Origin: Verrucomicrobiaceae bacterium
Lineage (GTDB): Bacteria > Verrucomicrobiota > Verrucomicrobiia > Verrucomicrobiales > Verrucomicrobiaceae
Assembly (NCBI GenBank): GCA_019694165.1
Contig: JAIBCL010000007.1
Coordinates: 186,001-250,000 of the forward strand
Length of the DNA: 64,000 nt
Direction of reading: 5' to 3'
Shown: one piece after another, positions 7,492 to 33,489 of the stretch
Layout of the letters: each line of letters begins with the position of its first letter
Numbering within the stretch: the first letter of the stretch is position 1
Notes under the pieces: model-generated
The model's database searches: none
What the model was told of the DNA's origin: nothing
Seen by the model: the letters and a program-made list of their open reading frames with translations, nothing else
Made by a program: the position numbers and the translations under genes

Positions 7492-8619
7492 TCACTCCAG
7501 CCATCGGATGCACGAGGGCATGGGCATCTCGACGGGGGATCCGGCCTTCTTAAGCGCGCCAGTCGCGGCGTCGATGGCGAAGACGACGAGGTTGTTCCCC
7601 GGCATGTTCGCGCAGAGCAGCCATCGGCCATCGGGCGTGACAAGGAGGTTCTGCGGGCCTTTGCCTTGGCTGGGTTCGATCTTGACCAAGGTCAGCCGGC
7701 CGTCGTCGGCGATGCGATAGCAGGCGATGCTGTCGTGGCCGCGATTGGTGCCGTAAAGATGCTTGCCGTCGGGCGTGATCTTCACGTCCGCCGTGTAGCT
7801 CTTGCCGGTAAAGCCGGCTGGCAATGTGGCGATGGTTTGCTTTTCCTTCAGCGTGCCGTCGGCGGCGTTCCAATCGAACACGGTGACGGTGTTGGCGAGT
7901 TCGTTGATGGCGTAAACGTGCCGGCCATCCGGATGAAAGGTGATGTGGCGCGGGCCGGAGCCGGGCTGCATCTTTGCGAAGGGCTGGGCTTCACCCGGCG
8001 AGAGTTTCGTTTCCGAGACATCCAGCTTGTAGATCATGATCTTGTCGATTCCCAGATCAGCGGCGAGCGCGAAACGATTGTCGGGGCTGATGACGATGCT
8101 GTGAGCGTTCGGCCCCTTCTGTCGCTCGGGATTCACGCTGGAGCCGCTGTGCTGGAAAAACGAAGCTGCCTCCGCCAGCGAGCCGTCGGACTTCACCGGC
8201 AGTGATGCGACGCTGCCTGAGGAGTAGTTTGCCACCACAACCGCTTTTCCTGTCGCATCCGTGTCGAGGTAGCACGATGAGGTGCCGCGCGATGATGCCC
8301 GGCCCAGCCGCATCAGCCGGCCTTCTTTGCCGATGGCATATGCGGCGACAAACTCGTCCACCTCGTCGCCAAAGTTCGCGGCGTCGATGGAGTAGAGGAA
8401 ACGACCGTCTCTCGAGAGCGCGAGGAAGAAGGGATTCTGGACATCGGTGGTGCGGTGCAACGGCTTGAGCACGCCGGCCGTCGAGTCGAAATGAAAGGCG
8501 TGAATGCCGGCCTTGTCTCCGGATGCGAATGCGGAGACGAAGACGACGGGATCGCCGGCGCGTGCGAGTGGAGCCGTGGTCATGAGTGCAACAATGGTGA
8601 GACGAAGAATGGATGACAT
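7492..8619 (-). CDS. Lactonase-type seven-bladed beta-propeller protein, secreted
   Basis: 375 aa with a signal peptide (MSSILRLTIVALMTTAPLARA). The body has regularly spaced propeller strands of the 6-phosphogluconolactonase (Lactonase, PF10282) type: 'LALSRDGRFLYSID', 'GKAVVVANYSSGSVASLPV', 'PDNRFALAADLGIDKI', 'GPRHITFHPDGRHVYAINELANTVTVF', 'ITPDGKHLYGTNRGHDSIACY', 'PQNLLVTPDGRWLLCANMPGNNLVVF'. The cytosolic enzyme hydrolyses 6-phosphogluconolactone; exported relatives like this one probably act on other lactones or are structural. It stands alone, with about 200 bp of non-coding DNA on its 5' side. Confidence 0.88.
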   Translation of the reverse strand: MSSILRLTIVALMTTAPLARAGDPVVFVSAFASGDKAGIHAFHFDSTAGVLKPLHRTTDVQNPFFLALSRDGRFLYSIDAANFGDEVDEFVAAYAIGKEGRLMRLGRASSRGTSSCYLDTDATGKAVVVANYSSGSVASLPVKSDGSLAEAASFFQHSGSSVNPERQKGPNAHSIVISPDNRFALAADLGIDKIMIYKLDVSETKLSPGEAQPFAKMQPGSGPRHITFHPDGRHVYAINELANTVTVFDWNAADGTLKEKQTIATLPAGFTGKSYTADVKITPDGKHLYGTNRGHDSIACYRIADDGRLTLVKIEPSQGKGPQNLLVTPDGRWLLCANMPGNNLVVFAIDAATGALKKAGSPVEMPMPSCIRWLE

Positions 8620-8817
8620 GGAGTGCGAATGCGTGGTTTACGATACCGGGACGCGCAGTCTGGCTCCTGCCGGGCAGATTTCAGCGCCGACGACGACACA
8701 TGTGTGCTTCAGGGCAATGCAAGCCGGCTTGATCCCTCCATGAGCATGGCGCGGGGGCCGATGCGTGGCGCCACGGAGCGGGAACGAGCGGCCCTCATCG
8801 CCCGCTCGAGCAGCAAC

Positions 8818-10248
8818 TCATGCGATGAGTTCAGGAATCGGTTTCCCATTCTCCACGATATGCACCGGGCGTCCGTTCAAGTCGTCGATCGTCACCTTTG
8901 ACGAGTCGATGCCGAGATGGTGGTAGATCGTCGAGAGGAAGTCGCCGGGGCCGCAGGGACGTTCGACGACATCTTCGCCGCGCTTGTCGCTCGCGCCAAT
9001 GACGCCGCCGGTCTGGATGCCACCGCCAGCCCAGATGTTGGTGAAGGCGCGAGGCCAGTGGTCGCGGCCAGGTTGAAGAGTGCCAGCAGGAGCGCTCGCA
9101 TCTCCGGCTCCAGTGCTGCGGTCGAAGCTGATCTTCGGCGTGCGGCCAAATTCTCCCGTCACAACAACGAGCACGCGTTTGTCCAAACCGCGCGCATAGA
9201 CGTCTTCGATGAGTGCGGAGACAGCGCGGTCATAGTTTGGCATGCGGAAACGCAGGGCTTCGAACTGATGCTGGTTCACCGCGTGGTCGTCCCAGTTGCC
9301 GACGCGACCGCAGAGCGGACCACTGAGCTGGCTGGTGATGATCTCCACGCCCGACTCCACGAGACGGCGCGCGAGGAGCAACTGCTGGCCCCAACGATTG
9401 CGACCATAGCGGTCACGGGTGGCCGGGTCTTCCTTGCTGAGGTCAAAGGCATCACGCGTGCTCGGGTTTGTGAGCAGCGTCATGGCCTGGGTTTCGAATT
9501 TGTCGAGCGCTCCGAGTTCGCCTTCGCGGTCAAAGGCACGCTCCATGCGGTCGAGGCTCTTGCGCAGGGCGACCTTGTCGCTGAGGCGGCGGGTTTCAGC
9601 CGCGTCAGAGAGACCGATATTCGGCACCTCGAAGTTCGGACGGTTCGGATCGTCGCTGACAGCGAAGGGCGAATACGCGTCACCGAGATAAGCCGGACCG
9701 CAGTATTCAGGCGAGGCGGGATTCACACCGACATAGTTCGGCAGCGGGTTCGCGCGCTTGCCTTCCTTGGAGCGCAGGTAGTTCGCCACGGACATCCAGT
9801 CAGGGAGTTTCACCTTCGGTTTGTCGCGCACATCGGGGTCGCCGGAAAGCATCTGCATCGAGCCCGCCGGATGTCCGCCTGCGCCCTGGTTCATCGAGCG
9901 GAGGATGGTGAACTTGTCCGCGATCTTCGCATTCATCGGCAGCAGCTCGGTGAAGTGCGTGCCTGGAATCTTCGTTGGGATGGTCTTGAACGGACCGCGA
10001 TACTCGCTGCTCGCCTCGGGCTTCGGATCATAGGTATCGACATGGGACTGTCCGCCCGGCAGCCAGACCATGATGATGGCTTTGCGCTCTGATTTCGGCA
10101 GCGACGCATTGGCGGCACGCAGTTTGAGCAAACCTGGCCAGGTGAGCGAGGCCATGCCTGTCAGACCGATTTGCATGAATCCACGACGTGACATGGGTGT
10201 GGGGCCCGGACAGCGGATGATGGGAGAGGGTTTGATGATGGAGGACAT
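8818..10248 (-). CDS. DUF1501 family protein (exported sulfatase-like)
   Basis: 476 aa from ATG at 10248, 17 bp after the stop of the upstream gene. A twin-arginine-type leader (SRRGFMQIGLTGMASL, residues 20-35) directs export. The DUF1501 body has 'IIMVWLPGGQSHVDTYDPKP', 'FTILRSMNQGAGGHP', 'LLLARRLVESGVEIIT', 'VVTGEFGRTPKI' and 'DHWPRAFTNIWAGGGI', all typical. The fold is of the alkaline phosphatase/sulfatase superfamily but the function is unproven. It is the last gene of an operon with a PSCyt1-WD40 protein and a PPC protein, a gene set repeatedly seen in Planctomycetes and Verrucomicrobia. Confidence 0.93.
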   Translation of the reverse strand: MSSIIKPSPIIRCPGPTPMSRRGFMQIGLTGMASLTWPGLLKLRAANASLPKSERKAIIMVWLPGGQSHVDTYDPKPEASSEYRGPFKTIPTKIPGTHFTELLPMNAKIADKFTILRSMNQGAGGHPAGSMQMLSGDPDVRDKPKVKLPDWMSVANYLRSKEGKRANPLPNYVGVNPASPEYCGPAYLGDAYSPFAVSDDPNRPNFEVPNIGLSDAAETRRLSDKVALRKSLDRMERAFDREGELGALDKFETQAMTLLTNPSTRDAFDLSKEDPATRDRYGRNRWGQQLLLARRLVESGVEIITSQLSGPLCGRVGNWDDHAVNQHQFEALRFRMPNYDRAVSALIEDVYARGLDKRVLVVVTGEFGRTPKISFDRSTGAGDASAPAGTLQPGRDHWPRAFTNIWAGGGIQTGGVIGASDKRGEDVVERPCGPGDFLSTIYHHLGIDSSKVTIDDLNGRPVHIVENGKPIPELIA

Positions 10249-10265
10249 GATGTTCGGTCTGAGGG

Positions 10266-12560
10266 TTATTTGGCTCCAAATACGGCGAGTTCCTTCCCGT
10301 TCGTTCCATCCCACATGCGGAAGACGCTGTCTTCACCGCCTGCGACGATGGTGCCGCCGTTCGGCGTGCTGGCGCTGGCCTGCATGTAATCGGGGAGATT
10401 GGCGATGCTGCGGACATCGCCGCCGTCATCGGTGACGATGCGCACGCGATTGTCACCCGCAGCGGTAACGATCTGGTTGGTGGCTCCGATGAACTGCACG
10501 GAGGTGACTTCCTTCGTCCAGCCTTCGATCTTCTTCTTCCGCTCGCCGATGATCATGTCCCAGGTGTTCACCACGCCTTCGGCACCGCTGGTGGCGAGGA
10601 CGCGACCATCCGCACGGAAGGCGACGCTGGTGACATGATGGGTGTGGCCTTCGAACAGGTTCACCTGCTTGCCGGAAGCGATGTCCGTCACGCGCGCGAT
10701 CTTGTCCGCCGCACCTGATGCGAGGAGTTTTCCATCCGGTGAGAAGTCGAGACAAAGGACGGTGTCCGCGTGACGCTCCTTCCAGACCTTGACGGGCTTG
10801 CCCGTGGCAACGTCGATCAAGGCAATGTCGCCCGACCGGGAGAGTTCACCGCCACCGGCGGCAAGCGTTTTGCCATCGGGACTGAAGCGCACGGCATTCA
10901 CACGATCAGCAAACAAGGAGCGATCCGAGGTGCTGCCGATCGTGCGCTCAAGCGTCCAGCGCGGGGTGGTGCCGGTGGACAAAGTAACGCCGGTGCTGGC
11001 GGAGAATGATCCATCCGCATTCGCCACCAAGGTCGTCGTCGAACCGGCATTCGGAGTAATCTGTTCGACAGGCGCACCCGATGCCACAGCCCACACGCCA
11101 AGCGAATGATCATCCAGCAGCGCCGCCACACGCTGGCCATCAGCAGCGAAGGCAACGGCGAGAGGTTTCGTCGTGGCTTTGCTCAAGGAAGCTTTCAACG
11201 CCGTGAGATCGGCAGAGGCTTTCTCCTGCGCTTTCTTTGCGGAATCGACGGCAGCGTTTGCAGCAGCAACAGCCTTGGCGTTCTTCGCCTTCGAGTCCGA
11301 GATGCGCTTCACGTCGGCTTCGGCGTCCTTCACATTGCTCTCGGCGGCGGAGACTGCGGACAAAGCCGAGACTTCCGTCATCGCAGCGACCTGGAACTTC
11401 TCCTGGGCGTTTTTCAGCTTCTTCTCCAGCGCGGCGTCGGCTTTGCCACCGGGAGCCTTCGCGATCTCAGCCTTCACTTCATCGACGCCCTTTTGCGCCG
11501 TTGTCTTCGCTTCGGTGGTCGGCGGCACAGCCTTCTGTTTCTCGGGCAGCACTTTCTTCATCGCCGCGATGGCGTCGTTCGCCTTCTTCAAAAGTTCGTC
11601 CAGCGCCTTGTCCTGGGACTCTACGCGAGCGATCTCGGACTTTTGGAACGCCTGCTCCAAGGTCTGTGCTGCGACGATCCACTCGAGTTCGGCCATCTTT
11701 TTCGTGCTGGCGACATTGCCACGCAACTCGGCGATTTGTTTCGCCGTCGCCGACTCCCACACGCGCACCGAACCGTCCGCGCAACCGGTGACGACCTGCT
11801 TGCCGTCGGCGGACATCGCGCTGCTCGTGATGGTGACTTTGCCCGCAGTCTGGATCTTATTGATCAAATCCGCGCTCGCCGGCGTCGTCGATCCCTTCGC
11901 GCCAGCAGTCGCTGCCGCCGACTCCAGGTGCCACACTTTCGCCTCACGGAAGCTGCCACTTGCCAGACGCGTGCCGTCTGGACTGAAGGCCAGCGACTGA
12001 ACCAGCGCACGATGCGCGGCTCCGCTCTTCTCTTTGGGGTCACTGATCTGTCCGACCATCTGCCGGGTGGCCAGATCATAGACGTAGATGTGGTTCGAAC
12101 GACCGCAGGCCGCATATCGACCATCTCTCGTCATCGCGATGGTGTAGATGGGATCGACGCTGGCGGCCATCGCTTGCAGCACCACCACGCGCTCCTGCTG
12201 CACAGAACTCTTCGCCCCCTGATCGATCCACTGGCTGAGCAGCGCGATCTCACCGGCGCTGAGATTCATCGCGCCAGACTTGTTGTTCGGCGGCGGCATC
12301 TCCATGTCTTTGAGATGCTTGGACGCTTTAACCACAAGGCTATCAGCGCTTTTGCCAGGAATGATCGACGGACCATTTTCACCGCCTTTGATCATCAATT
12401 CCGGCGTCTCCATGTTGAGGCCGGCCTTGGTGGTGGTCTTGTTGTGACAGGAGACGCAGTTCGCTTTCAGGAACGGATAGACGTCCTTGTAAAAGTCGAG
12501 ATCAGCAGCACCAGCGGACGCGATGAAGGAGGATGCAGCGAGGATCGTGATCGGTTTCAT
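10266..12560 (-). CDS. PSCyt1 c-type cytochrome / WD40 repeat protein with inserted coiled coil
   Basis: 764 aa with signal peptide (MKPITILAASSFIASAGA). A planctomycete cytochrome C domain follows: haem motif CVSCH at residues 35-39 and the distal 'MPPPNNK' methionine region near 90-100. WD40 blades run from about 135 to 280 (FSPDGTRLASGSF, GCADGSVRVWES). A long Lys/Ala/Glu-rich coiled coil (about 285-465) interrupts the propeller, and blades resume to the C-terminus (RFSPDGKTLAAGG, LDFSPDGKLLASGA, FRADGRVLATSG). It is probably a periplasmic haem protein anchored in a complex. Its start overlaps the upstream stop by 4 bp (ATGA), implying translational coupling. Confidence 0.92.
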   Translation of the reverse strand: MKPITILAASSFIASAGAADLDFYKDVYPFLKANCVSCHNKTTTKAGLNMETPELMIKGGENGPSIIPGKSADSLVVKASKHLKDMEMPPPNNKSGAMNLSAGEIALLSQWIDQGAKSSVQQERVVVLQAMAASVDPIYTIAMTRDGRYAACGRSNHIYVYDLATRQMVGQISDPKEKSGAAHRALVQSLAFSPDGTRLASGSFREAKVWHLESAAATAGAKGSTTPASADLINKIQTAGKVTITSSAMSADGKQVVTGCADGSVRVWESATAKQIAELRGNVASTKKMAELEWIVAAQTLEQAFQKSEIARVESQDKALDELLKKANDAIAAMKKVLPEKQKAVPPTTEAKTTAQKGVDEVKAEIAKAPGGKADAALEKKLKNAQEKFQVAAMTEVSALSAVSAAESNVKDAEADVKRISDSKAKNAKAVAAANAAVDSAKKAQEKASADLTALKASLSKATTKPLAVAFAADGQRVAALLDDHSLGVWAVASGAPVEQITPNAGSTTTLVANADGSFSASTGVTLSTGTTPRWTLERTIGSTSDRSLFADRVNAVRFSPDGKTLAAGGGELSRSGDIALIDVATGKPVKVWKERHADTVLCLDFSPDGKLLASGAADKIARVTDIASGKQVNLFEGHTHHVTSVAFRADGRVLATSGAEGVVNTWDMIIGERKKKIEGWTKEVTSVQFIGATNQIVTAAGDNRVRIVTDDGGDVRSIANLPDYMQASASTPNGGTIVAGGEDSVFRMWDGTNGKELAVFGAK

Positions 12561-14749
12561 TTCTTGGAGGCGGTTGCGACTTGAGCGGCTTTGACCGAGA
12601 CGCGGATGGGTTCGGAAATGATGATGTCCACGGTGTCCGTGGGAGCTGCGGCATCCGTGATGGCTTTCATCTTCTTTGTGGCGCTCGCCATCGCGGCATC
12701 GGCCTGCTTTTGTTTCTCCGCAGCTTTCTTCGCGGCTTCGGCATCGGTGGCGGCGACCTTTTTCGCAGCTTCCGCAGCCGCCACGGCATCCTGCTCTGCC
12801 TTTTTCTTTTCAGCCTCCGCGAGCGGCACGGCGGCGGGGTTGTAACGGTATTTGCTGATGCCCAGGCTCTTGAAAGCAAAGGTGTAGTCCCCTGGTGCGA
12901 TCTTCAATGCGGCGAGATCAATGGGCACTTCGAAGGTCGCTGCTTTCAGCGGAACCTCGAACTCCTTGATGCCGCTGAAACCATCACCGTAAGCAGTCAC
13001 GCGGATCGAAGAGCCGTTGAACTCATTGCGCCACGTGAGCTTGAGCGGGAGTTTAAGCGTCTCGCCAGCCTTCGCTTCATAGACCTTCTTCTCCGCAGCG
13101 GAGATCGTGACCGGCGCGCCTTCAGATTCCGTGACCGATACGGGCACCTGGGCAAACAGACGCGGCGCAGGAATCTCGCCGTGAGCGTCTTTCACCGGCC
13201 ACTCGGTGCTGGCGATGCGGGCTTCGTGAGTGACGGGCTTGCCGTTGATGGCAGCCTTGCCAACGATCTTCGCGAGCGAGAAGCCGCGCTTCGCACCGCT
13301 GTCGGCGCTGACGATGAGATGGCCGTAGGGCTTGCCTTTGCCGATCTTCAATCCGGCAGCGCTGACTCCAGGAGGCAGGTTCTCCATGCTGATCTCAATC
13401 TCTTCATCAAACCCATCGCGACGCACGACGGCGACTTCAAACACCCGCGAGTCGCCCTGCCGAAGTGCGAGCGGCTTCGATAGCGCCGCACGGTCGCCAT
13501 TGCGCAGCGTCATGTGCACTGCCCAGGCGGCGAGCGAGAAATCCGGTGCGGCCTGGCGCACGATAAGGCGGTAGATGTTGTTCGGGTCCTTTCGCGTGCC
13601 ACCGAACAGATCGCGCACTTGAAGCCGGTAGGCGCCATCTTCTTTGACCTCGAACTTGCCGTTTACGTCAGGCGACCCGGCGTCATACACCGGACCGTCG
13701 TAGGAGTAGCCGTTGCTCGATGTCTTCATCGGCTGGGCGATGTCATTCAGCTCGGCCACATCGGTGGTCTTTCCATCTTTGACCTGCTGAACGAGCACGA
13801 AGGGATCGGTGTTCAAACCGAAGCGCTCGGAGGCGACTTCCACCCACCACGTCTCGCCTTTCTTGGCGGTGAACTCGAAGGTGTCCACATCCGCTGCTGG
13901 ATAGAAACTGCCCGCGATGTCGCACGGCAGCGTGATCTTCTGCGCCTGATCTGCCTTGTTGTTCGGTTCCTTTTCTTGCGCAGCCGCATTCGCACTGAGT
14001 CCGGCCGGCGGCCAGGACATCGCGCTGACCATCTGGGTCTGAGGCTGCCGTGGCGCAGGGTCGCTTCCCTTCACTTCCTGCAAAGCGAGGCGGTAGAAAT
14101 AGCGATCGCCACCGCCATAGGTGATGTCGCTGACTTTGATCAAATACGTGCCGTCCGCGGGAGCCGTGAAGTCGATCACACCGCCCGTGCGATTCACCAA
14201 CAGATCGTGTCCCTGCACATCGCCGAGGATGACCACCGGCGTGAGTCGTGAGTCAATGCCCACCGCCGCACAATCCACCGCCACTCGCTTGCCTTTGGTC
14301 CCCTGGAACGAATAGAAGTCCACGGCACGCTTGGTCATGGTCGCATTGCAAATGGTGCCAACATGCAAGGGCATCGCGGTCTCGACAGAGTTGTTCGCCT
14401 TCGCTCGCGTGACCTCGGGCAGCTTGTTCACTGAGAACGCACGGGCCGATGAAACTCCCAGCCGCGACATCACACGCGCATCATAAACACCGACGGGCGC
14501 ATCCGCCGCGATGGAGACGCTGAATTTGTTCTCAGCCCCGGCGACAGGTTTGGCCGTGATCTTCGGAGTCGAAAACTGCATCTCGGTCACGTCCTCGATG
14601 TTTTCGCCGGTAATGGTCACTTCCAATGTCGTGCCCACCTGCCCGCCCATCGGCGTAACGGTGAGCAAACGCGGCAACGGCAACGTGACCTGCTGCGCAA
14701 GCGCAGAGGCACTGATCAAAGCTAGAGAGCAAGCGAGTCGGAGGTTCAT
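12557..14749 (-). CDS. Secreted PPC/IPT-domain protein, first gene of cytochrome operon
   Basis: 730 aa with signal peptide (MNLRLACSLALISASALA-Q). An IPT/TIG-like domain starts at about residue 28 (LTVTPMGGQVGTTLEVTITGENI). Two bacterial pre-peptidase C-terminal (PPC)-type modules follow, marked by 'VDFYSFQGTKGKRVAVDC' with 'DGTYLIKVSD' and by 'VDTFEFTAKKGETWWVEVASER' with 'DGAYRLQVRDLFGG'. A Lys/Ala-rich helix lies near the C-terminus (about 650-700). Such proteins bind surface carbohydrate or protein partners. It heads a tightly coupled three-gene operon with the PSCyt1-WD40 and DUF1501 genes. Confidence 0.9.
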   Translation of the reverse strand: MNLRLACSLALISASALAQQVTLPLPRLLTVTPMGGQVGTTLEVTITGENIEDVTEMQFSTPKITAKPVAGAENKFSVSIAADAPVGVYDARVMSRLGVSSARAFSVNKLPEVTRAKANNSVETAMPLHVGTICNATMTKRAVDFYSFQGTKGKRVAVDCAAVGIDSRLTPVVILGDVQGHDLLVNRTGGVIDFTAPADGTYLIKVSDITYGGGDRYFYRLALQEVKGSDPAPRQPQTQMVSAMSWPPAGLSANAAAQEKEPNNKADQAQKITLPCDIAGSFYPAADVDTFEFTAKKGETWWVEVASERFGLNTDPFVLVQQVKDGKTTDVAELNDIAQPMKTSSNGYSYDGPVYDAGSPDVNGKFEVKEDGAYRLQVRDLFGGTRKDPNNIYRLIVRQAAPDFSLAAWAVHMTLRNGDRAALSKPLALRQGDSRVFEVAVVRRDGFDEEIEISMENLPPGVSAAGLKIGKGKPYGHLIVSADSGAKRGFSLAKIVGKAAINGKPVTHEARIASTEWPVKDAHGEIPAPRLFAQVPVSVTESEGAPVTISAAEKKVYEAKAGETLKLPLKLTWRNEFNGSSIRVTAYGDGFSGIKEFEVPLKAATFEVPIDLAALKIAPGDYTFAFKSLGISKYRYNPAAVPLAEAEKKKAEQDAVAAAEAAKKVAATDAEAAKKAAEKQKQADAAMASATKKMKAITDAAAPTDTVDIIISEPIRVSVKAAQVATASKK

Positions 14750-15155: not shown

Positions 15156-18100
15156 ATGTCCCACCGTCCGTCCCGTCTCCTTTTCGCCTGCCTGTCTCTC
15201 GTGGCAGTTTCGGCCCGGGCAGAATTCAGCGCAGTCTGCAAAGTCGTCACCGGCAGTGGGGCAGCAGCCTATGAAGTCCGGACTTGGGGGAGTCCGCAGG
15301 CATTCGTCGCCAACACTGGTGGCGTCATTCTTGGCACAAGACCGCAAACCGTGGCAATGGAATCCTTCACCGTCAGCCCGAATGGCGACCTCTACTCGGT
15401 GCAGGTTGCGGGATGGGACCCGTCGAAGTACGAGATCTACCGCTATCGCGACGCCTACGATTTCGTGAACAACAACAACACGATCATCGGAGTGAATTCG
15501 ACAGCCGGGGTGTTGGCCGGTGTCACGTTCGATGCGAGCGGGCAGTTTTACGCCGTGCAGGATGTGACCGTCGGCGGGGGAAGCCGCAGCTATCTGGTGA
15601 AGCGCTGGGCATCCATCACCGATTTCGTCTACGACACGAATCCCACCACGCTCGGCACACGGACGAACTCGGGAGTACAGACCGGCATCGAATTCATCGA
15701 CGGGCGGCTTTGCTCGATCGAGGAAAAGACGGGTGGCGGCGTGCTCTCGTACGAAGTTTGGGATTGGGGTACGTCCTTCGCGGGATTCATCAGCAAGACG
15801 GGAACCAAGACCGGCACACGCACGGGCATCGAACAGACCGTGGCCATTTTCTCGATGTCACACGACGTGCCGCAGCCCCAGACGGTGGTGGCACGCAGTC
15901 CGCAGTGGCCGTGGCTGGGGAATCGTTTTCCGGCGTCGATCCCAGGGTCACAGGCCGGCTGGGCGACAACCAATGCGTTCCCGAATCTGACCTTCGAGGA
16001 TCCTGTGAAAATGCTGCCGCAGCCGAACTCGAACCGCCTTTGGGTCATTGGCCGGCAGGGACACATCTGGTGGTTTGAAAACAATCCGGCGACAACCGAC
16101 AAGACGCTCGCTCTCGACCACTACAACTCGACCATGGGCCACGAAGACTGCGGGATGCTCGGCATCGCCTTTCATCCCCAGTTCGGTCAGGCCGGATCAC
16201 CAAATCGCGGGTACATCTATGTTTGGTATAACTACCGCCCCACCGGCAACACCGGCAGCGTGGGAGCAAACTACAACCGCCTCTCCCGCTTCACGCTCGC
16301 CGACGGGGCGTCAATCATCGATCCCGCCAGCGAGTACGTGCTCATCAACCAGTTCGATGAGCATTCGTGGCACAATGGCGGCGACATGTTCTTCGGCCCC
16401 GACGGTTTTCTCTACGTGAGCAATGGCGACGAAGGCGGCGCAAACGACCAGTACAACAACACGCAGAAAATCAACGACGGCCTCTTCTCCGGTGTGCTGC
16501 GCATCGACGTGGACCGGGATGCGTCGCGCAGCCATCCGGTCCGCCGCCAGCCGCGCGCCGGCGGCACGCCGCCTGCTGGCTGGCCCGGCACGTACACCCA
16601 GGGCTACTACATCCCGAACGACAATCCCTGGCTCGACCCTGGCGGCTCGGTGCTCGAGGAGTTCTACGCCATCGGGCTGCGCAGCCCGCACCGCATGACG
16701 CGCGATCCGCTCACGGGCACGGTCTTCATTGGCGACATCGGGCAAGCGGCGCGCGAGGAGGTCGATATCCTCGCCCGCGGCGCGAATTTCCAGTGGGGCT
16801 ACCGCGAGGGCGACATCTCAGGCCCCAAGGCCATGCCGTCGCCCCTCATCGGCACCGACACGCCGCCGGTGTGGAGCTACTCCCGCTCGCAGGGGGATTC
16901 CTGCGTCATCGGTGGTCATGTCTATCGCGGCACTTCTCTCGCCGCCGACATCGGCGGGAAGTTCGTCTTTGGCGACTACATCTCCGGCCGGATCTGGGCC
17001 ATGGCCTGGCAGGGCGCCCCTGCGGCACATGTCACCCAGCTCACCATCGTGACCGGATATACTCTTTCCGGCTTCGGCGTCGATCAGGGCAACGAGCTTT
17101 ACCTCATGAGCCTGGGAGCACAGGGGAAGATACTCAAGCTCGTCCACGCCCAGACCCAGCAGCCTCCCGCCACGCTTTCCGCCACCGGAGCGTTTTCTGA
17201 TCTTGCCACGCTGACCCCTGCTCCCGGCGTCATCGCCTTCGACGTAAACTCGCCGCTCTACTCCGACAATGCCCTCAAGCAGCGCTGGATCGCCGTGCCG
17301 AACAATGGCGCGCCCTACGACTCCACTGAAACCGTAGGCTTCAACTCCGCCGCCGAATGGACTTACCCGGCCGGCACTGTGCTCATCAAGCAGTTCGACC
17401 TCGCCGTCGATGACACAAACCCGGACATCCGCCGGCGCATCGAGACCCGCTTCAACGTCAAAACCACCAGCGGCGAATGGTACGGCGTCGCTTACAAGTG
17501 GCGGGCCGATGGCAGTGACGCTGATCTCCTCGAAGACAGCGCCACTGAGAACGTGACCATCGCCACGCAGGGCGGCGGCACGCGCATGCAATCGTGGTAT
17601 TTCCCCAGCCGCAGCGACTGCATGAGCTGCCACACGCCCGCATCATCGCAGGTCCTCGGCCCGCGCACATGGCAGCTCAACGGCACCTACTCGTACCCAG
17701 GCACCACCACGACGGGCAATCAGCTCCAGATCTGGAGTGACATCGGCATGTTCGATCAGACCCTCACCCCCGCGCAGATCGCCGGCTTCCTGAAAACCGT
17801 CTCGATCCACGACACCACCGCCCCGCTGGAGACACGCGTGCGCTCGTATCTCGACTCGAACTGCTCCAGTTGCCATCGCCCGGGAGGCGTCCGCGCGCGC
17901 ATGGACTTCCGCTTCACCACACCGCTCTCTCAGCAGAGCATCGTAAACGGCCCGCTCAATGACACCCTCGGCATCAACGGCGCCTACGAGGTCGCGCCCG
18001 GCAGCATCTGGCAGTCCATGATGCACATCCGCATCGGCAGCCTCGATCCCTCCATCCAGATGCCGCCCATTGGCCGCGGTACCGTCGATTCGTCCGCGCT

Positions 18101-19799
18101 CGCCGTCATCGACGCATGGATAAACGGCCTCGCCCCCCTCGCAGCACCTTATCCGCTATCCGCCGTCGTCACCGACTACCGTGCGATTGCTCTCTCGTGG
18201 ACCAGCCAGTCCGCGAACCACACCGGCTTCGTCATCCAGCGCTCGCAGAATGGCGGCACATCATGGTCGCAGATCGCCACGCCCGGAGCGGGCGCTGCTT
18301 CGTTTACGGACATCACCGTCGTCCCTGGCACTGCCTACCAGTACCGCATCGCTGCAAAAAACAGCACCGACACCTCGCCCTGGTCGAACACCGTCCCGGT
18401 CACCACCTGGCCCACGCCAGGCTCGTGGGACGACTGGCAGCGCCTTCATCCGCTCGGCGGGCAGAATTTGCCGCTCCAGAATCCGGATGGAGACACCTCC
18501 GCCAATCTTCTCGAATACGCGCTCGGCACCAATCCTTCCGGAGGTGGCTCCGGCCAGGAGCGCTTCTATCTCACCGGCAACATGTCCGGCGGACTCGATG
18601 CCGTCGCCATTCGGCCATCGAACGTCATCGGAGTCACCTGGACTTTCTGCATTGCGTCCTCGCTCGGCAAACCGATGCCGTGGATCGCCTGGACGCAAAG
18701 CCCTGTCATCACCAACAACAGCGACGGCACGCAGACTCTCACCTTCCCCAACATCGACACCATCCCCGCGCTCGCCGCCGCCAGACAGGGCTTCGTCCGC
18801 CTTGAGGTCACGCTCAATGCCACCGGCGAGTCCGCACACAGCGCCACCTGGCTCTGGGATGCGCACACCTTCGCCACCGGCACGCGCAGCTTCGGCCCGG
18901 CGATGCTCAAGCCCGAGCGCTTCTCCGGCATCGTCAATGGCGGCGGCACCATCCTCAATCTCGTCACCAGCGCGGGCGGCACCAGCGTGCGCGGCCGCTT
19001 TGATCCGGCGCGCGCCGCCTACATCGAGATCACCAGCGGCACCTATGCCGGACAGCGCTTTGACATCGACATCGCCGCCTCCACCACCACCACGCTCGCA
19101 CTCGACCCCGCCTCGCCGCGCAACACCACCGCGCCCGTCCCCGACCTCACCGGCGCCACCGTCATCGCGCGCGATCATTGGACGCTCGGTGACATGTTCC
19201 CGCCCGCGCACTGGCAGGCTGCCTCCAGCGCCACGCGCTCCGATCGCGTCATGTTCTACTCTCCCGCCGCCGGCTGGACCTACTACTGGCTGGCGCTCGT
19301 CGGCGGCACGCCGCGCTGGGTGCGCCAGGCCGATGCCACACTCACCGACCAAAGCCCCCTCATCATCCCGCCCGGTGCCGGCCTGTTTGTCCGCAAAATC
19401 GGCGCCACCGCTGAAATCCTGCTCACCGGCGTCCTGCGTGAGAATGCCTTCGTTCTGCCATCACCGGCCGGCATCACGCTCATCGCATCGGGCTGGCCCG
19501 CCGACCAGTCGCCCGCCTCCCGCGCCATGCTCCTCAGTGACGGCTTCACCGGTGCCAATGCCTCCTCAAACGCCGATCAGTTCATGCGCTGGGCACCCGA
19601 CCTCAATCCCGCATCCGCCGAAGGCTTCCTCAGCCACTATCTCCTCAAGACCGCCACGCTCCAATACTGGACTCCCATGGGCAACGCCACCCTGCCAAAC
19701 GAAAACAACACCCTTCTCTTCCCCCGCCATCAGGCCGCCTTCATAAAGCTCAAGAACGCGCAGCCAAACTGGACACTCCCATCGCCCTGGCAGCCCTGA
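15156..19799 (+). CDS. Giant secreted PQQ-type sugar dehydrogenase / dihaem cytochrome-like / Fn3 protein
   Basis: 1547 aa from ATG at 15156, chosen because a signal peptide follows (SHRPSRLLFACLSLVAVSARA). Residues 20-255 hold several repeats of the form 'V-x-W-x(3)-DFV...LGTRTNSGV'. About 270-670 is a glucose/sorbosone dehydrogenase-like propeller (HEDCGMLGIAFHPQFG, GGDMFFGPDGFLYVSNGDEG, EEFYAIGLRSPHRM, VFIGDIGQAAREEVD). About 680-990 is a cytochrome-like region with two haem motifs, CMSCH at 822 and CSSCH at 903. An Fn3 domain lies near 990-1080, and a beta-rich C-terminal region (to 1547) resembles verrucomicrobial TIGR02597 proteins. It probably oxidises sugars or alcohols outside the cytoplasm and passes electrons to haem. 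It is monocistronic. Confidence 0.88.
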   Translation: MSHRPSRLLFACLSLVAVSARAEFSAVCKVVTGSGAAAYEVRTWGSPQAFVANTGGVILGTRPQTVAMESFTVSPNGDLYSVQVAGWDPSKYEIYRYRDAYDFVNNNNTIIGVNSTAGVLAGVTFDASGQFYAVQDVTVGGGSRSYLVKRWASITDFVYDTNPTTLGTRTNSGVQTGIEFIDGRLCSIEEKTGGGVLSYEVWDWGTSFAGFISKTGTKTGTRTGIEQTVAIFSMSHDVPQPQTVVARSPQWPWLGNRFPASIPGSQAGWATTNAFPNLTFEDPVKMLPQPNSNRLWVIGRQGHIWWFENNPATTDKTLALDHYNSTMGHEDCGMLGIAFHPQFGQAGSPNRGYIYVWYNYRPTGNTGSVGANYNRLSRFTLADGASIIDPASEYVLINQFDEHSWHNGGDMFFGPDGFLYVSNGDEGGANDQYNNTQKINDGLFSGVLRIDVDRDASRSHPVRRQPRAGGTPPAGWPGTYTQGYYIPNDNPWLDPGGSVLEEFYAIGLRSPHRMTRDPLTGTVFIGDIGQAAREEVDILARGANFQWGYREGDISGPKAMPSPLIGTDTPPVWSYSRSQGDSCVIGGHVYRGTSLAADIGGKFVFGDYISGRIWAMAWQGAPAAHVTQLTIVTGYTLSGFGVDQGNELYLMSLGAQGKILKLVHAQTQQPPATLSATGAFSDLATLTPAPGVIAFDVNSPLYSDNALKQRWIAVPNNGAPYDSTETVGFNSAAEWTYPAGTVLIKQFDLAVDDTNPDIRRRIETRFNVKTTSGEWYGVAYKWRADGSDADLLEDSATENVTIATQGGGTRMQSWYFPSRSDCMSCHTPASSQVLGPRTWQLNGTYSYPGTTTTGNQLQIWSDIGMFDQTLTPAQIAGFLKTVSIHDTTAPLETRVRSYLDSNCSSCHRPGGVRARMDFRFTTPLSQQSIVNGPLNDTLGINGAYEVAPGSIWQSMMHIRIGSLDPSIQMPPIGRGTVDSSALAVIDAWINGLAPLAAPYPLSAVVTDYRAIALSWTSQSANHTGFVIQRSQNGGTSWSQIATPGAGAASFTDITVVPGTAYQYRIAAKNSTDTSPWSNTVPVTTWPTPGSWDDWQRLHPLGGQNLPLQNPDGDTSANLLEYALGTNPSGGGSGQERFYLTGNMSGGLDAVAIRPSNVIGVTWTFCIASSLGKPMPWIAWTQSPVITNNSDGTQTLTFPNIDTIPALAAARQGFVRLEVTLNATGESAHSATWLWDAHTFATGTRSFGPAMLKPERFSGIVNGGGTILNLVTSAGGTSVRGRFDPARAAYIEITSGTYAGQRFDIDIAASTTTTLALDPASPRNTTAPVPDLTGATVIARDHWTLGDMFPPAHWQAASSATRSDRVMFYSPAAGWTYYWLALVGGTPRWVRQADATLTDQSPLIIPPGAGLFVRKIGATAEILLTGVLRENAFVLPSPAGITLIASGWPADQSPASRAMLLSDGFTGANASSNADQFMRWAPDLNPASAEGFLSHYLLKTATLQYWTPMGNATLPNENNTLLFPRHQAAFIKLKNAQPNWTLPSPWQP

Positions 19800-30129: not shown

Positions 30130-30181
30130 GGGAAACACATGGGCTTGACCGCCGCATGGCGTGCTGTCTCGTGGCCTGCCC

Positions 30182-30397
30182 ATGCCCGAGATCCTCTCCA
30201 CCAGCCTCTTCCGCGAAGTGTGCGATGCCGTGTTCTTCCGTGTGCTGGGCGGGCGCAATGGGCCGGCTTACATCGACATGCTCGATGCGCTGGATCGCGA
30301 GTGCGAGGAGCAGCCGGACGGGCTGGATCGCGCGGAGGCCGTCGAGATCGCGCGATCAGACACTGGTCGTGTCGGCCAAAAGGGAGGGATCAAATGA
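30182..30397 (+). CDS. Small JetA N-terminus-like protein, 71 aa
   Basis: Starts at ATG 30182 and ends overlapping the jetA start by 4 bp (ATGA). Residues 17-52 ('FFRVLGGRNGPAYIDMLDAL...LDRAEAVEI') align with JetA residues 18-56 ('FFRPLARPSAPVYVDCADRL...LSQRETTEI'), sharing FFR, L, P, Y, D, D, L, R, E and EI. It therefore looks like a free-standing copy of the JetA N-terminal helical/winged-helix segment, either a functional small subunit or a truncated paralogue. The tail (RSDTGRVGQKGGIK) is unlike JetA. It is expressed together with jetA if translated. Confidence 0.55.
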   Translation: MPEILSTSLFREVCDAVFFRVLGGRNGPAYIDMLDALDRECEEQPDGLDRAEAVEIARSDTGRVGQKGGIK

Positions 30398-31872
30398 ACG
30401 GCCCTCTCCTCAGCGCCCGTCTCAGTCGCAGCGTTTCGGTCGATTTTTTTCGCCCGCTGGCCCGGCCTTCCGCGCCGGTGTATGTGGACTGCGCCGACAG
30501 GCTGATCGAGGAGGCGGGCGAGGCCGGACGACTCTCGCAGCGGGAGACGACGGAGATCATCAAAGAGGTCATCGCGCGGCATCCGCTTTCGTTGCTGGCC
30601 GAGGACGAAGGTGCTGCGCTGCGCGATGCGCGGCAGCGCGCGGGTCAGTTTTTCAATCGCCTCATCGCTGCCGGCTGGCTGGAAGATCAGACGCTGGGCT
30701 TGCATGAACGCTGGGCCGTCGTCACGCCAGGGCTGCGACCGCTCATGCGCATGCTGCGCGACCTCGCCGAGGATCGCGTGGCGGAGCTGAAAACATTTGC
30801 CGACACCCTGCGCGGCCTTTGCCAGACGCTGGAGGAGCGCGGCGTGCTCGATCCCCAGATCCATCAACCCGACGAACTGCGCTCCACCATCACCGACCTC
30901 TCGCAGCGTCTCGAACGCGCCATCGAGCAACTCCACGCGGTGGAAAAAATCGTCACCAGCTTCGAGCAGCGCCAAAGACAGACCACGACCGCCGCCGACA
31001 CGCTGAATCTGCTCTACGAGGAGTTCGGCCAGGGCCAGCACATGGTCTGCTACGATGCCTTGCGTCGGGGCGGATTGCTCACGCGCATCGAGAACGCTCG
31101 CAGCGCCATCTCCGAGCGTCACGACGACCCGCTCATGCGCGAGCGTCTCGCCGAAGGACTGCGCGAGCACTACGGCTACGACAACTCGGAGTCCTACGAT
31201 CAGGCGGTCACGATGCTCACCAAGCTCGAACGTGATCTCGGCGGCCTGAAACGGCGCGCGGAGGCCATCGATCTGCGCATGGCCGCCTTCAACCGCCTCA
31301 GCCAGCAGCGTTATCGCTACCAGACCGAGCTGCGCGGCCGGCGACCGGAGATCATCAAAGCCTACTGCGACGCGATCAACGCCGCACGCGCCGGCGGTCG
31401 CTTTTCCGAGTTTGCAGGCCAGCCTGCCGATTTCTCGCCCCGCTGTGTCGAGACACGCTTCTTCTTCGGCACCGAGTCGCTCTACAAACCGCGCCGCACC
31501 AAGTCGCCCGTCGATCTCACGTTCGGTGAGAGTGGTGCCTCAAAACAAAGCGAAGATGACGTGCTCGCCGCTTGGAAAGAGCGCCAGCGCCTGGCCCTCA
31601 CACCGCAACGTGCCGCGCGCCTCGTCGCGAAGCTGCTGCCCGCCAAAGGCCGCTCGACGAGCACCGAAGACATCACCTTGGAGACCACCGACGATCTGCT
31701 CGATCTCCTCGCCGTCGTCGCCTACGAGCACGCGCCCGCCCTCGCTGGCAAACGCATCCGCTGGAATGTCGATGGCCTCCGCCGTCGAAACGGCCTGGAG
31801 CCACATGTTCTCGAGCACGATGAGATCGCTGAACACCGCGTGGAGCGGTTTGCGATCACACGAGAGGGGTGA
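30394..31872 (+). CDS. jetA: Wadjet defence protein JetA (kleisin-like)
   Basis: 492 aa, ATG 30394 with an AGGGAGG ribosome site. It begins 'VDFFRPLARPSAPVYVDCADRLIEEAGE', a typical JetA opening, then 'RAGQFFNRLIAAGWLE', 'PGLRPLMRMLRDLAEDR', 'LNLLYEEFGQGQHMVCYDALRRGGLLTRI' and coiled-coil segments 'RLERAIEQLHAVEKIV' and 'MLTKLERDLGGLKRRAE'. JetA is the kleisin subunit that bridges the JetC SMC-type ATPase in Wadjet, a system that extrudes DNA loops and cuts small circular DNA such as plasmids. Subtype not assigned from sequence alone. It is followed by a two-gene insertion before jetB. Confidence 0.88.
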   Translation: MNGPLLSARLSRSVSVDFFRPLARPSAPVYVDCADRLIEEAGEAGRLSQRETTEIIKEVIARHPLSLLAEDEGAALRDARQRAGQFFNRLIAAGWLEDQTLGLHERWAVVTPGLRPLMRMLRDLAEDRVAELKTFADTLRGLCQTLEERGVLDPQIHQPDELRSTITDLSQRLERAIEQLHAVEKIVTSFEQRQRQTTTAADTLNLLYEEFGQGQHMVCYDALRRGGLLTRIENARSAISERHDDPLMRERLAEGLREHYGYDNSESYDQAVTMLTKLERDLGGLKRRAEAIDLRMAAFNRLSQQRYRYQTELRGRRPEIIKAYCDAINAARAGGRFSEFAGQPADFSPRCVETRFFFGTESLYKPRRTKSPVDLTFGESGASKQSEDDVLAAWKERQRLALTPQRAARLVAKLLPAKGRSTSTEDITLETTDDLLDLLAVVAYEHAPALAGKRIRWNVDGLRRRNGLEPHVLEHDEIAEHRVERFAITREG

Positions 31873-31919
31873 TGCCGTTCGAAGCTTGGCAAGATGCTCC
31901 TCTGGAATAATATCTCACC

Positions 31920-32195
31920 ATGCAGTTCATCCAGAGTCCGCCAGAACTTCATCCGCTCATGGACGCCATTCGTCGTGATCGCGTGATCAGGGCGCGGAGG
32001 CAAACTCCCGAGGAGCGCTTCGCGGAGGCGATGGAGATGACCGACTTCGCTTTCGAGGTGATGGAGGCATCGGTAAAGGATTCCCATCCAGGTGCGGATG
32101 ACGAAACGGTGACTCGCATTTTGCGGGATCGGCTGGCCCGTCTCCGGAAACGTGAAGACAGGGGAATCTTCGTCCCATTGGAGAAGCCCGAATGA
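31920..32195 (+). CDS. Small partner of nucleotidyltransferase, 91 aa
   Basis: Begins 'MQFIQSPPELHPLMDAIRRDRVIRARRQTPEERFAEAMEMTDFAFEVMEA' and continues 'PGADDETVTRILRDRLARLRKRED'. The 'ARR-x-T-P-E-E-R-F' motif and the 'HPGADDE...RLARLR' tail are typical of small proteins paired with stand-alone nucleotidyltransferases in Planctomycetes and Verrucomicrobia. The role is not established; a toxin-antitoxin-like arrangement is a common interpretation. Its stop overlaps the next start by 4 bp (ATGA), so the pair is coupled. It begins 47 bp after jetA. Confidence 0.75.
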   Translation: MQFIQSPPELHPLMDAIRRDRVIRARRQTPEERFAEAMEMTDFAFEVMEASVKDSHPGADDETVTRILRDRLARLRKREDRGIFVPLEKPE

Positions 32196-32749
32196 AGCAA
32201 AGCGAACTGGTAGCCTTCGTCCTGGAAGCAGCGGATCGCGCCGCCGTATCCTGCATGGTGGGAGGCTCCGTGGCCTGCATGAATTACATGATTCCTCGGG
32301 CCACGAAAGACTTCGATCTGGTGATTCAGATTCAAGAGCCGCAGTTCACCGCTTTTCTCCAGGAAGTGGATTCGCAGTTTCAGTTGGACCCGCAGGTGTA
32401 TATCGAAACGCTGACAGGCACGAAACGCTACATCCTGAAACATCGCACGACGGCGTTTGATGTGGAGCTTTTCATTCTCAGCGAGGATCCACACCACCTC
32501 TCCATGTGGAGCCGGAAGCGGCTTCGTCGGCAGGTTTTCTGCACGCGCGATGCCTGGACGGCAACAGCCGAGGACATGATCATCCAAAAACTGCGCTGGG
32601 CGCGTCCGCAGGATCTTGTGGACGCCGACAGCATGATCGTCGTGCAAGGCGATGAACTCGACTGGCCATACATCGAGCACTGGTGTGATCTGCATGGCAC
32701 CCGTGACAGGTTGGAAAAAATTCGGGCGGACATTCCTCCGGTGACTTGA
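32192..32749 (+). CDS. Nucleotidyltransferase (AbiEii/DUF6036-like) inside the Wadjet locus
   Basis: 185 aa. The nucleotidyltransferase core 'CMVGGSVACMNY...RATKDFDLVIQI' gives GGS plus D-x-D (D-F-D) at about residues 24-48, and 'TTAFDVELFIL' supplies the third acidic residue. The C-terminal 'TAEDMIIQKLRWARPQDLVDADSMI' and 'LDWPYIEHWCDLHG' are typical of the group used as toxins or stress effectors (AbiEii-like). Coupled to the 91-residue partner. It lies between jetA and jetB, which normally are adjacent, so it is an insertion or an accessory module. Confidence 0.85.
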   Translation: MKQSELVAFVLEAADRAAVSCMVGGSVACMNYMIPRATKDFDLVIQIQEPQFTAFLQEVDSQFQLDPQVYIETLTGTKRYILKHRTTAFDVELFILSEDPHHLSMWSRKRLRRQVFCTRDAWTATAEDMIIQKLRWARPQDLVDADSMIVVQGDELDWPYIEHWCDLHGTRDRLEKIRADIPPVT

Positions 32750-32835
32750 GAAGTGACGGCTGAAAGTTGCAGGTTGCTCCACTGGTGAGCCTTTCATGTT
32801 GCCACACATCTTCTCTGTTCTACCTCTCACGGCCC

Positions 32836-33489
32836 ATGTCTGTCTCCACCTCCGATCCTCTCTGGCCGCGCTCCTTTTGGAGTGATGTGCCTGATGGCGA
32901 CCGCGCTGCGCTGCGCGAGGTGCTGGCGGAGTTGCTGGGGCGTGGCGTGTTGCTGGGCGATGAGGGCAGCGGTCGTGAGTTGTATCTGCTGGCGCGCGAT
33001 CACTACCGCACGCATGTGGAGGACTACCTCGCGCCGCTGGCGCTAGAGTTGATCATCGATGAAGAACACTCGCTGCTCCAGGCACGGCCGCGCACCGAGT
33101 CGTGCTTGTTGCTCGGTCGCTTCGACAAGGACGAGACGCTCGCGCTGCTGGCCCTGTGGAGGCTCTACGATGATGAAATCAGCACCGGCAGCCAGGAGGC
33201 GGTGATTGTCACCGTCGATCAGTTGTGGGCCGCGCTGAAGGTATACTTCGACAAAGTCGCCACGCCGGAGAAATCGCAGATCGAAGCCTGCCTCGCGCGG
33301 TTGCGCCGTCATCGCCTCATCCGCACGCTGAAGCCCGAAGGCATGACGCAGGCTGGCGAGATGCAGATTGAGATCCTGCCGAGCCTCGCACGGGTGATTC
33401 CCTTTGATGACATCGCTGCCTGGCAGGCGCGGGTAGAGCAGTTTCAGCCGCCGAAGGATGGCGCGGATGCCGGGGAGGTGCTGGCATGA
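32836..33489 (+). CDS. jetB: Wadjet defence protein JetB (DUF4194, KITE-like)
   Basis: 217 aa from ATG 32836 (start upstream at 32767 would add a cysteine-rich stretch unlike the family). It has 'FWSDVPDGDRAALREVLAELLGRGVLL', 'HYRTHVEDYLAPLALELIIDEEHSLLQARP', 'LALLALWRLYDDEIS', 'VTVDQLWAALKVYFDK' and 'CLARLRRHRLIRTL', the pattern of tandem winged-helix DUF4194 proteins. JetB dimers bind the JetA kleisin next to the JetC coiled coils. Its stop overlaps the jetC start by 4 bp. Confidence 0.9.
   Translation: MSVSTSDPLWPRSFWSDVPDGDRAALREVLAELLGRGVLLGDEGSGRELYLLARDHYRTHVEDYLAPLALELIIDEEHSLLQARPRTESCLLLGRFDKDETLALLALWRLYDDEISTGSQEAVIVTVDQLWAALKVYFDKVATPEKSQIEACLARLRRHRLIRTLKPEGMTQAGEMQIEILPSLARVIPFDDIAAWQARVEQFQPPKDGADAGEVLA

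Follow-up and report, generated by a model that had tools for sequence, protein, structure and literature searches.

Among the closest described counterparts of the protein considered here are the soluble sugar dehydrogenases that use pyrroloquinoline quinone (PQQ), such as sGDH (1c9u), E. coli Asd (2g8s) and 3a9g, and the fungal CcPDH (AA8-AA12-CBM1), which carries a cytochrome b domain, a PQQ propeller and a cellulose-binding module. According to excerpts of the papers on the fungal enzymes, CcPDH binds PQQ, yet its clamp for the cofactor is unlike that of sGDH (PMC6881789, PMC4133262); CcSDH is PQQ dependent, although several residues that bind PQQ in Bacteria are absent from it (PMC4133262); the bacterial and archaeal homologues of CcPDH are said to have no cytochrome domain (PMC4133262); and one fungal quinohaemoprotein drives polysaccharide monooxygenases (PMC5960967). 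The gene described here lies in a stretch of 64,000 nucleotides from a Verrucomicrobiaceae bacterium (GCA_019694165.1, contig JAIBCL010000007.1, positions 186,001 to 250,000 of the forward strand), hereafter the window. Its sequence encodes a single polypeptide that comprises a signal peptide, a propeller of the glucose/sorbosone dehydrogenase (GSDH) type, two conserved haem c motifs, an Fn3-like domain and, at the C-terminus, a module specific to the family, termed C-module below.

This protein may be read as a secreted dehydrogenase resembling the quinohaemoproteins, held at the cell surface and directed to carbohydrates, a reading that has about an even chance. Likewise, the chances are even that it is a bacterial analogue of CcPDH, built with c-type haem; were that so, the fungal quinohaemoproteins would have a bacterial counterpart. 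The comparison is based on the presence of a propeller and haem in one secreted protein and on a clamp that differs from the one of sGDH (excerpts of PMC6881789 and PMC4133262). However, CcPDH bears an N-terminal haem b domain, whereas here a diheme c unit lies C-terminal to the propeller, and the identity between the propeller and 6jt5 (CcPDH) is just 12%.

The Propeller and Its Putative Quinone Site

The propeller matches the Pfam family GSDH (PF07995) with 74.1 bits against a cut-off of 25 (E 1.6e-20; best stretch at residues 281-465, plus a second one), and its predicted fold is six-bladed. Profile searches ranked HHIP first (E 1.8e-45), followed by 3a9g (2.2e-29), E. coli Asd (2.4e-28) and sGDH (3.1e-25); HHIP is also the top match in Foldseek. 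By structural comparison HHIP (best Z 38.5) is level with the glucose dehydrogenases (7cdy, Z 37.8), with values of Z 33.5-38.5 for HHIP together with the bacterial and archaeal sugar dehydrogenases and of Z 33.5-37.8 for the solved enzymes alone; AA12 chains gave Z 28-30 and 12-14% identity, as obtained by structural alignment. HHIP is not known to be an enzyme; the titles of its structures report complexes with Hedgehog and with heparin.

The six-bladed fold and the catalytic His and Arg are common to this protein and the soluble PQQ sugar dehydrogenases. Indeed, His406 and Arg509, the counterparts of catalytic His144 and of Arg228 of sGDH, are present in all 55 aligned relatives, as is Gly529, the counterpart of Gly247. 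The column of sGDH Asn229 is occupied by Ser510 in the window protein and by Asn (30), Ser (23) or His (2) among the 55, while HHIP, which has neither the catalytic Arg nor a haem unit, shows His at the Arg place and Asp at the Asn place. Unlike the soluble enzymes, the window protein is fused to haem c and is devoid of the clamp that holds the PQQ carboxylates: sGDH Lys377, Arg406 and Arg408 find no basic counterpart, their places being taken by Ile609 (or Ser610), Thr636 and Ser638. Blade 6 was partly aligned by hand because MAFFT left gaps at Arg406/408; Thr636 and Ser638 were placed by aligning TLSGF to RLRDV of 3a9g, and Lys377 was put by MAFFT on Ile609, next to Ser610, or, in another mode, on Gly654. 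Basic residues are scarce at these positions also among the 55 relatives (two Lys at 636, none at 638, one Lys and one Arg at 610), and none occurs at 609 in the 50 of the 55 rows shown. Position 577, nearby in sequence, is basic throughout (His 28, Arg 27) and may serve in place of the clamp. Since the catalytic half is kept and the clamp is altered, PQQ dependence is plausible only. Human HHIP is the nearest solved relative by profile, which hints at the origin of the HHIP propeller.

The Diheme Domain

Behind the propeller, residues 671-991 match NCBIfam TIGR03806 ("SO2930 family diheme c-type cytochrome") over positions 2-313 of the 314 of the profile (E 1.1e-68). The score of 231.8 bits is under the cut-off of 313.3, and on this alignment the domain is homologous to the TIGR03806 domain, not a filed member of the family, from which it is also set apart by the GSDH propeller that precedes it in the same protein. 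The two CxxCH motifs account for four of the protein's ten cysteines; 10,000 shuffles of the protein generated at least one such motif in 10 cases and two in none. C822, C825 and H826 of the first motif, C903, C906 and H907 of the second and Met969 are invariant in the 87 distinct diheme domains collected. Because Met969 and CxxCH are invariant, haem 2 is read as a His/Met site of the class I type, while no Met or His that could serve as distal partner of haem 1 was found conserved among the 87 domains. Lys745 is kept in 83 domains and replaced by Gln in 3 and by Arg in 1; the next position, 746, has His in 73 domains, Gln in 7 (the window protein included), Thr in 6 and Asn in 1; the 14 rows devoid of His746 contain no Met or His column at 70% or more, except the two CxxCH histidines and Met969.

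A rule by which Met865 replaces His746 was considered and rejected: all six Gln746 rows had Met865 among the first 55 rows, but with 87 rows this residue is absent in one of the seven Gln746 rows and in six of the seven Thr/Asn rows, and it is present in 10 of the 73 with His746. FoxE (5mab) matched just at the haem-2 end (E 0.0013) and was of no use. The genome contains two matches to the haem c assembly family PF01578. A subgroup of the relatives (L101, L102, L104, L110-L113) has an insert of about 190 residues within the diheme domain, before haem 1, which in L102 gives a weak DUF1349 match (E 0.0072).

Similarity of the Haem-1 Lobe to Cytochrome P460

P460-type haem is known, according to excerpts of PMC12352625 and PMC11928373, from hydroxylamine oxidation and ligand binding. 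Gly73 and Lys78 of McP460 are described as conserved in all 144 sequences studied, and Pro71 as shared by a subgroup; the cross-link to the haem is made by Lys78, whose counterpart in TtCP-beta is Phe61 (excerpts of PMC6427953 and PMC11928373). The haem-1 lobe resembles cytochrome P460 and cytochrome c'-beta in being, in the predicted model, a beta lobe with CxxCH near its end, and in carrying a P-x-G-x4-K stretch that matches Pro71, Gly73 and Lys78 of McP460 (PMC6427953, in part). This stretch, with conserved Gly and Lys five residues apart, occurs at the same place in 79 of the 87 diheme domains, and elsewhere only twice in their 29,959 residues.

The likeness was evaluated by hhalign, using a haem-1 profile from 79 of the 87 domains (A3; the eight with long inserts were excluded) and a P460 alignment of ten sequences (A5), two taken from genomes and eight from matching plasmid records, of which there are 35; A5 retrieves P460 and c'-beta chains of known structure (15 distinct sequences). 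The two profiles aligned with a score of 39.7, a probability of 84.5 and an E of 6.9e-6 for this single pair, while 60 column-shuffled versions of A5 reached at most 18.6 and reversed A5 11.5; the C-module profile gave a probability of 0.1 with A5, and a single P460 sequence in place of A5 lowered the probability to 41.9. P738-A-G740-TVLI-K745 is placed onto the P-x-G-x4-K/F motif of P460, and the extended alignment sets CxxCH on CxxCH. In the 7ead chain, Phe61 is by count the residue after PKGTVIV, and therefore the columns agree. Thus, as judged from these alignments, the haem-1 lobe and P460 are probably remotely homologous. Differences are also evident, since the haem-1 profile is longer (172 vs 133 columns) and the window protein has a second haem lobe and a propeller attached. 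The Pfam profile Cytochrome_P460 (PF16694) matched residues 671-991 weakly (E 0.063, 14.1 bits, cut-off 27) and the haem-1 lobe of the window protein alone not at all; it detected the lobes of 6 of the 79 relatives at E <=0.1, the best with E 0.0049. If the lobe is P460-like, apparent surface redox proteins of Verrucomicrobiota and Bacteroidota would contain this haem type beside a propeller of the sugar-oxidising type.

Spread of the Propeller-Diheme Fusion

TIGR03806 matches occur in 20 of 194 genomes sampled from the phylum, none above the curated cut-off, in a scan that scored at most ten candidates per genome. Among the matches listed, 33 are full length; 22 of these were retrieved, including the one of the window, and all 22 have GSDH upstream in the same open reading frame (ORF), although L030 only weakly. 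Six peptide patterns, run against species genomes, added 10 confirmed loci, nine from Bacteroidota (Saprospiraceae, Zobellia, Maribacter, Flammeovirgaceae and Flavobacteriales) and one from Verrucomicrobiales, in which propeller and diheme domain are both covered at 36-48% identity. Overall, 83 of the 87 diheme domains follow GSDH within the same ORF, a share that is biased upward because most loci came from a query including GSDH; the 22 of 22 are free of this bias, the diheme profile alone having been the query. Of the four exceptions, two (L164, L174) stand alone, one (L171) is ended by the contig edge, and in L198 (L204) only about 96 residues precede the diheme domain. At least three further full-length copies are present in the same genome (C22, with 56% identity, C11 and C6). 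The core fusion is thus a widespread architecture in Verrucomicrobiota and Bacteroidota, and ordinary as a bare fusion; literature searches returned no characterised member of this kind. The stand-alone diheme proteins are both from Bacteroidota (L164:1309-2451, 381 aa; L174:1315-2565, 417 aa), and L174 has TSP3 repeats.

Six relatives were scanned with Pfam for additional modules. Those of carbohydrate type are present in three of the four Bacteroidota relatives: L051 (ricin-B) and L053 (ricin-B, PA14, Big_2) end in a Por_Secre_tail, and L049 has ricin-B and F5/8C, with no Por_Secre_tail at E 0.001. L050, from Verrucomicrobiales, shows PA14, and L091, from the same family as the window, He_PIG and a DUF1349 match.

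The C-Terminal Module

Residues 1087-1547 were modelled with a predicted local distance difference test (pLDDT) value of 94.6 and a predicted template modelling (pTM) score of 0.91. The best Foldseek match of the module has E 1.1e-4 and probability 0.28, and the best VIA match has Z 7.3 over 98 residues of its first part; no new fold is claimed. The following part appears internally duplicated, as the score between its halves was reached by none of 1,000 shuffles, and TIGR02597 matches it at 1289-1352 with E 6.5e-7 and 28.6 bits, under the 50-bit cut-off; in contrast to TIGR02597, it stands here at the C-terminus of far larger proteins. Of 68 genomes belonging to the same family, 55 contain a match to residues 1087-1547 (E <=0.001), in a few cases only a weak one. 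Among the 150 matches listed, 106 lie in frames of at least 2,000 codons, 42 in frames of at least 5,000 and 12 in frames of at least 10,000; these frames run from stop to stop and some are ended by contig edges. Among the alignments from 49 matching ORFs, 43 end within 8 residues of the stop and one within 17, while five partial ones fall 30-84 residues short of it. Propeller, diheme domain and C-module are joined in one ORF also in L039 (2,372), L202 (1,819) and L203 (1,712), and L204 (1,890) combines the diheme domain with the C-module. The same genome (C63, C57) has frames of 12,571, 9,854 and 7,143 codons (L044, L043, L041) that end in the same C-module.

The window protein gave no match, up to E 1, to PF18962, the Por_Secre_tail of type IX secretion system (T9SS) substrates, and SprA, the marker of this system, was detected in both Bacteroidota genomes tested (G260, G262) and not found in the genome of the window; identity as a T9SS substrate was rejected on these grounds. 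Since some relatives carry T9SS tails, the C-module occupies the corresponding end and SprA was not found, we infer that the C-module may do the placing job. It would then offer a handle on the surface placement of proteins of several thousand residues where SprA was not found. The interest for specialists lies in this module and in the P460-like lobe, not in the fusion.

Proposed Mechanism and Alternative Readings

In the proposed mechanism the protein would be exported by Sec and its haem attached in the periplasm, and the C-module would hold it at, or take it to, the cell surface, like the T9SS tail of some Bacteroidota relatives. The propeller would oxidise a sugar, or the end of one, using PQQ or another quinone bound in the altered clamp, His406 acting as the base and Arg509 lying at a quinone oxygen; electrons would then enter the two-haem unit, where haem 1 would sit in the P460/c'-beta-like lobe with Lys745 in its pocket and the distal side open or modified, and haem 2 (His907/Met969) would be an ordinary transfer haem passing electrons to an outside acceptor. 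Several results weigh against a quinohaemoprotein-like dehydrogenase. No electron acceptor was identified; the curated PQQ dehydrogenase model TIGR03606 scores far under its cut-off (53.4 vs 434.55 bits), the top profile match of the propeller is HHIP and the clamp is absent; the pTM of the whole model is just 0.63, too low for electron-transfer distances, with a pLDDT of 91.4; the haem-1 profile retrieved no P460 chain from the PDB by hmmsearch up to E 10; and the Bacteroidota relative L056 shows GSDH only, with neither a lectin-type module nor a T9SS tail. A PqqC search gave no match in the genome of the window, a result that carries no weight because the controls also gave nothing. A more elaborate version is doubtful: it would make the SO2930-type diheme unit a natural fusion of a P460/c'-beta lobe with a class I cytochrome c, leave haem 1 five-coordinate and perhaps linked to Lys745, wire two reactive centres, the quinone propeller and the P460-type haem, to one transfer haem on the surface, and assign to the C-module the role of a verrucomicrobial domain for sorting to the surface, by which giant proteins are carried as well.

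A different role for the propeller, as a non-catalytic HHIP-like scaffold docking the diheme unit on a surface glycan while the haem unit alone performs the redox chemistry, appears unlikely. Such a scaffold would account for the missing clamp and for the lead of HHIP over the best PQQ-type enzyme by profile, but this lead vanishes by structure, where the two tie, and against a scaffold stand His406, Arg509 and Gly529, present in 55 of 55 relatives, with Arg and Asn/Ser where HHIP has His and Asp; moreover, the PQQ dependence of CcSDH despite its missing residues (PMC4133262, in part) speaks for a catalytic propeller even with an altered clamp. With respect to haem 1, it is somewhat improbable that it is a plain six-coordinate His/His carrier having residue 746 as distal ligand, with a superficial likeness to P460. 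The substitutions at position 746 are compensated by no other Met or His throughout, Met865 being present in six of the seven Gln746 rows and missing in one; Lys745 falls in the column of the P460 lysine, from which the next residue on the strand would point away, and the hhalign score is about twice that of the best shuffle. In favour of such a carrier are the prevalence of His746, the lack of a P460 match in the PDB by profile and the rarity of PF16694 matches among the lobes, with none for the lobe of the window protein.

That the C-module is a glycan- or fibre-binding adhesin domain and not a sorting or anchoring signal is an interpretation that falls somewhat short of an even chance: stand-alone frames of about 340-354 aa contain little beyond the TIGR02597-like part (L067, L068, L069, L072), whereas the position of the matches, nearly all of them close to the stop and the others partial near the end, and the sharing of the module by otherwise unlike large proteins argue for sorting or anchoring. 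An assembly or frameshift artefact joining separate genes has a negligible probability, and nothing was found in its favour: the identical propeller-diheme order recurs in dozens of loci, and the C-module follows in L039, L202 and L203 and, behind a diheme domain, in L204. For the core, an assembly artefact was rejected on the 83 of 87 diheme domains that lie behind GSDH in the same ORF.

Gene Layout and N-Terminal Repeats

The features of the gene are listed in Table 1. Frame 1 of the ORF has 1547 open codons and begins with MSHRPSRLLFACLSLVAVSARAEF; the domains follow each other from the signal peptide and the N-terminal repeats through the propeller, the diheme domain, Fn3 and the NPDGDTSANLLEYALGTNP loop to the C-module, which extends to the last residue. 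Stops interrupt the single frame that was translated from the opposite strand, where mechanical open frames inside the gene reach up to 363 aa. The Fn3 domain scores 21.4 bits with Pfam fn3 (E 3e-4), under the gathering score of 25, and the PDB chain FN3con matches residues 992-1084 (E 2e-6). The NPDGDTSANLLEYALGTNP linker is similar to Ca-loop/TSP3 stretches.

Table 1. Features of the propeller-diheme gene, with positions in the window.
Feature	Residues	Position	Strand	Basis
Whole gene, 1547 aa plus stop	1-1547	15156..19799	+	open reading frame
Sec signal peptide	1-22	15156..15221	+	by eye, ARA/EF cleavage
N-terminal domain, four diverged repeats of about 50 aa	36-239	15261..15872	+	units picked by eye
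Six-bladed GSDH propeller	265-666	15948..17153	+	Pfam, model, profile and structure searches
His406, counterpart of sGDH catalytic His144	406	16371..16373	+	55/55
Arg509, counterpart of sGDH Arg228	509	16680..16682	+	55/55
Haem-1 lobe	671-850	17166..17705	+	P460/c'-beta-like by profile
Lys745 of P738-x-G740-x4-K745	745	17388..17390	+	column of P460 cross-linking lysine
Haem-1 motif CMSCH, C822-H826	822-826	17619..17633	+	sequence
Haem-2 lobe, probably class I cytochrome c type	890-991	17823..18128	+	CxxCH...MPP and weak Cytochrom_C/CBB3 matches
Haem-2 motif CSSCH, C903-H907	903-907	17862..17876	+	sequence
Met969 of MPP, presumed distal haem-2 ligand	969	18060..18062	+	87/87
Fn3	997-1082	18144..18401	+	Pfam fn3, FN3con
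NPDGDTSANLLEYALGTNP linker	1109-1127	18480..18536	+	sequence; similar stretch precedes several C-modules
C-module, first part, Ig/Fn3-like	1117-1250	18504..18905	+	weak fold matches only
C-module end, TIGR02597-like, internally duplicated	1251-1547	18906..19796	+	profile, self-comparison

A preliminary description of this gene, made from the sequence alone, had proposed an extracellular oxidase and electron carrier in one 1547-residue polypeptide, with a PQQ-type GSDH propeller, two haem motifs, an Fn3 module and a C-terminus peculiar to the group. Much of this agrees with the present results, namely the single frame, the GSDH propeller, the invariant motifs, Fn3, the recurrence of the C-terminus in many proteins of the same family and, as judged by eye from the signal peptide, the probable export. 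The term PQQ-type suits the conserved His406, Arg509 and Gly529 but not the clamp, and that of electron carrier suits haem 2, whereas haem 1, given its P460 likeness, may not be a plain carrier; "oxidase" is unsupported as stated, and the core fusion proved common. Haem binding had been regarded as unlikely should the motifs lack axial ligands and conservation; both motifs and Met969 are in fact invariant, and haem 1 alone is without a conserved partner. The commonness of the fusion, the P460 likeness and the N-terminal repeats were absent from that description.

The similarity between the repeat units was compared with 1,000 shuffles: five of the six pairs were exceeded by 0-4 of them, while the second/fourth pair is at chance level (178 of 1,000). 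No convincing database family was found for this domain, with no Pfam family and a best PHROGs match of just E 0.079; of the phylum genomes sampled, the 193 others gave no match at E 0.01, and a single weak one (E 0.0036) lies elsewhere in its own genome, inside a frame of 8,024 codons.

Genomic Neighbourhood

Upstream, on the other strand, a sulfatase is found together with a divergent cluster (7492-14749, minus strand) coding a PF10282 lactonase, a DUF1501 protein, a protein with PSCyt1 plus WD40 and a PPC-domain protein. The proximity of the lactonase gene to that of a putative sugar-to-lactone enzyme could be significant or coincidental. A Pfam scan that covered twenty open frames of the window turned up a single further cytochrome, the PSCyt1 protein, encoded two genes from the fusion; PSCyt genes near sulfatases have been described for Verrucomicrobia, in an excerpt that states that there was then no knowledge of PSCyt function (PMC5615132). 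Further downstream, a Wadjet-type plasmid-defence locus occupies 30139-38440 on the plus strand and includes JetA (30139-31872), a likely JetB (32767-33489), an SMC/SbcC-like ATPase (33486-36827) and JetD (37241-38440).

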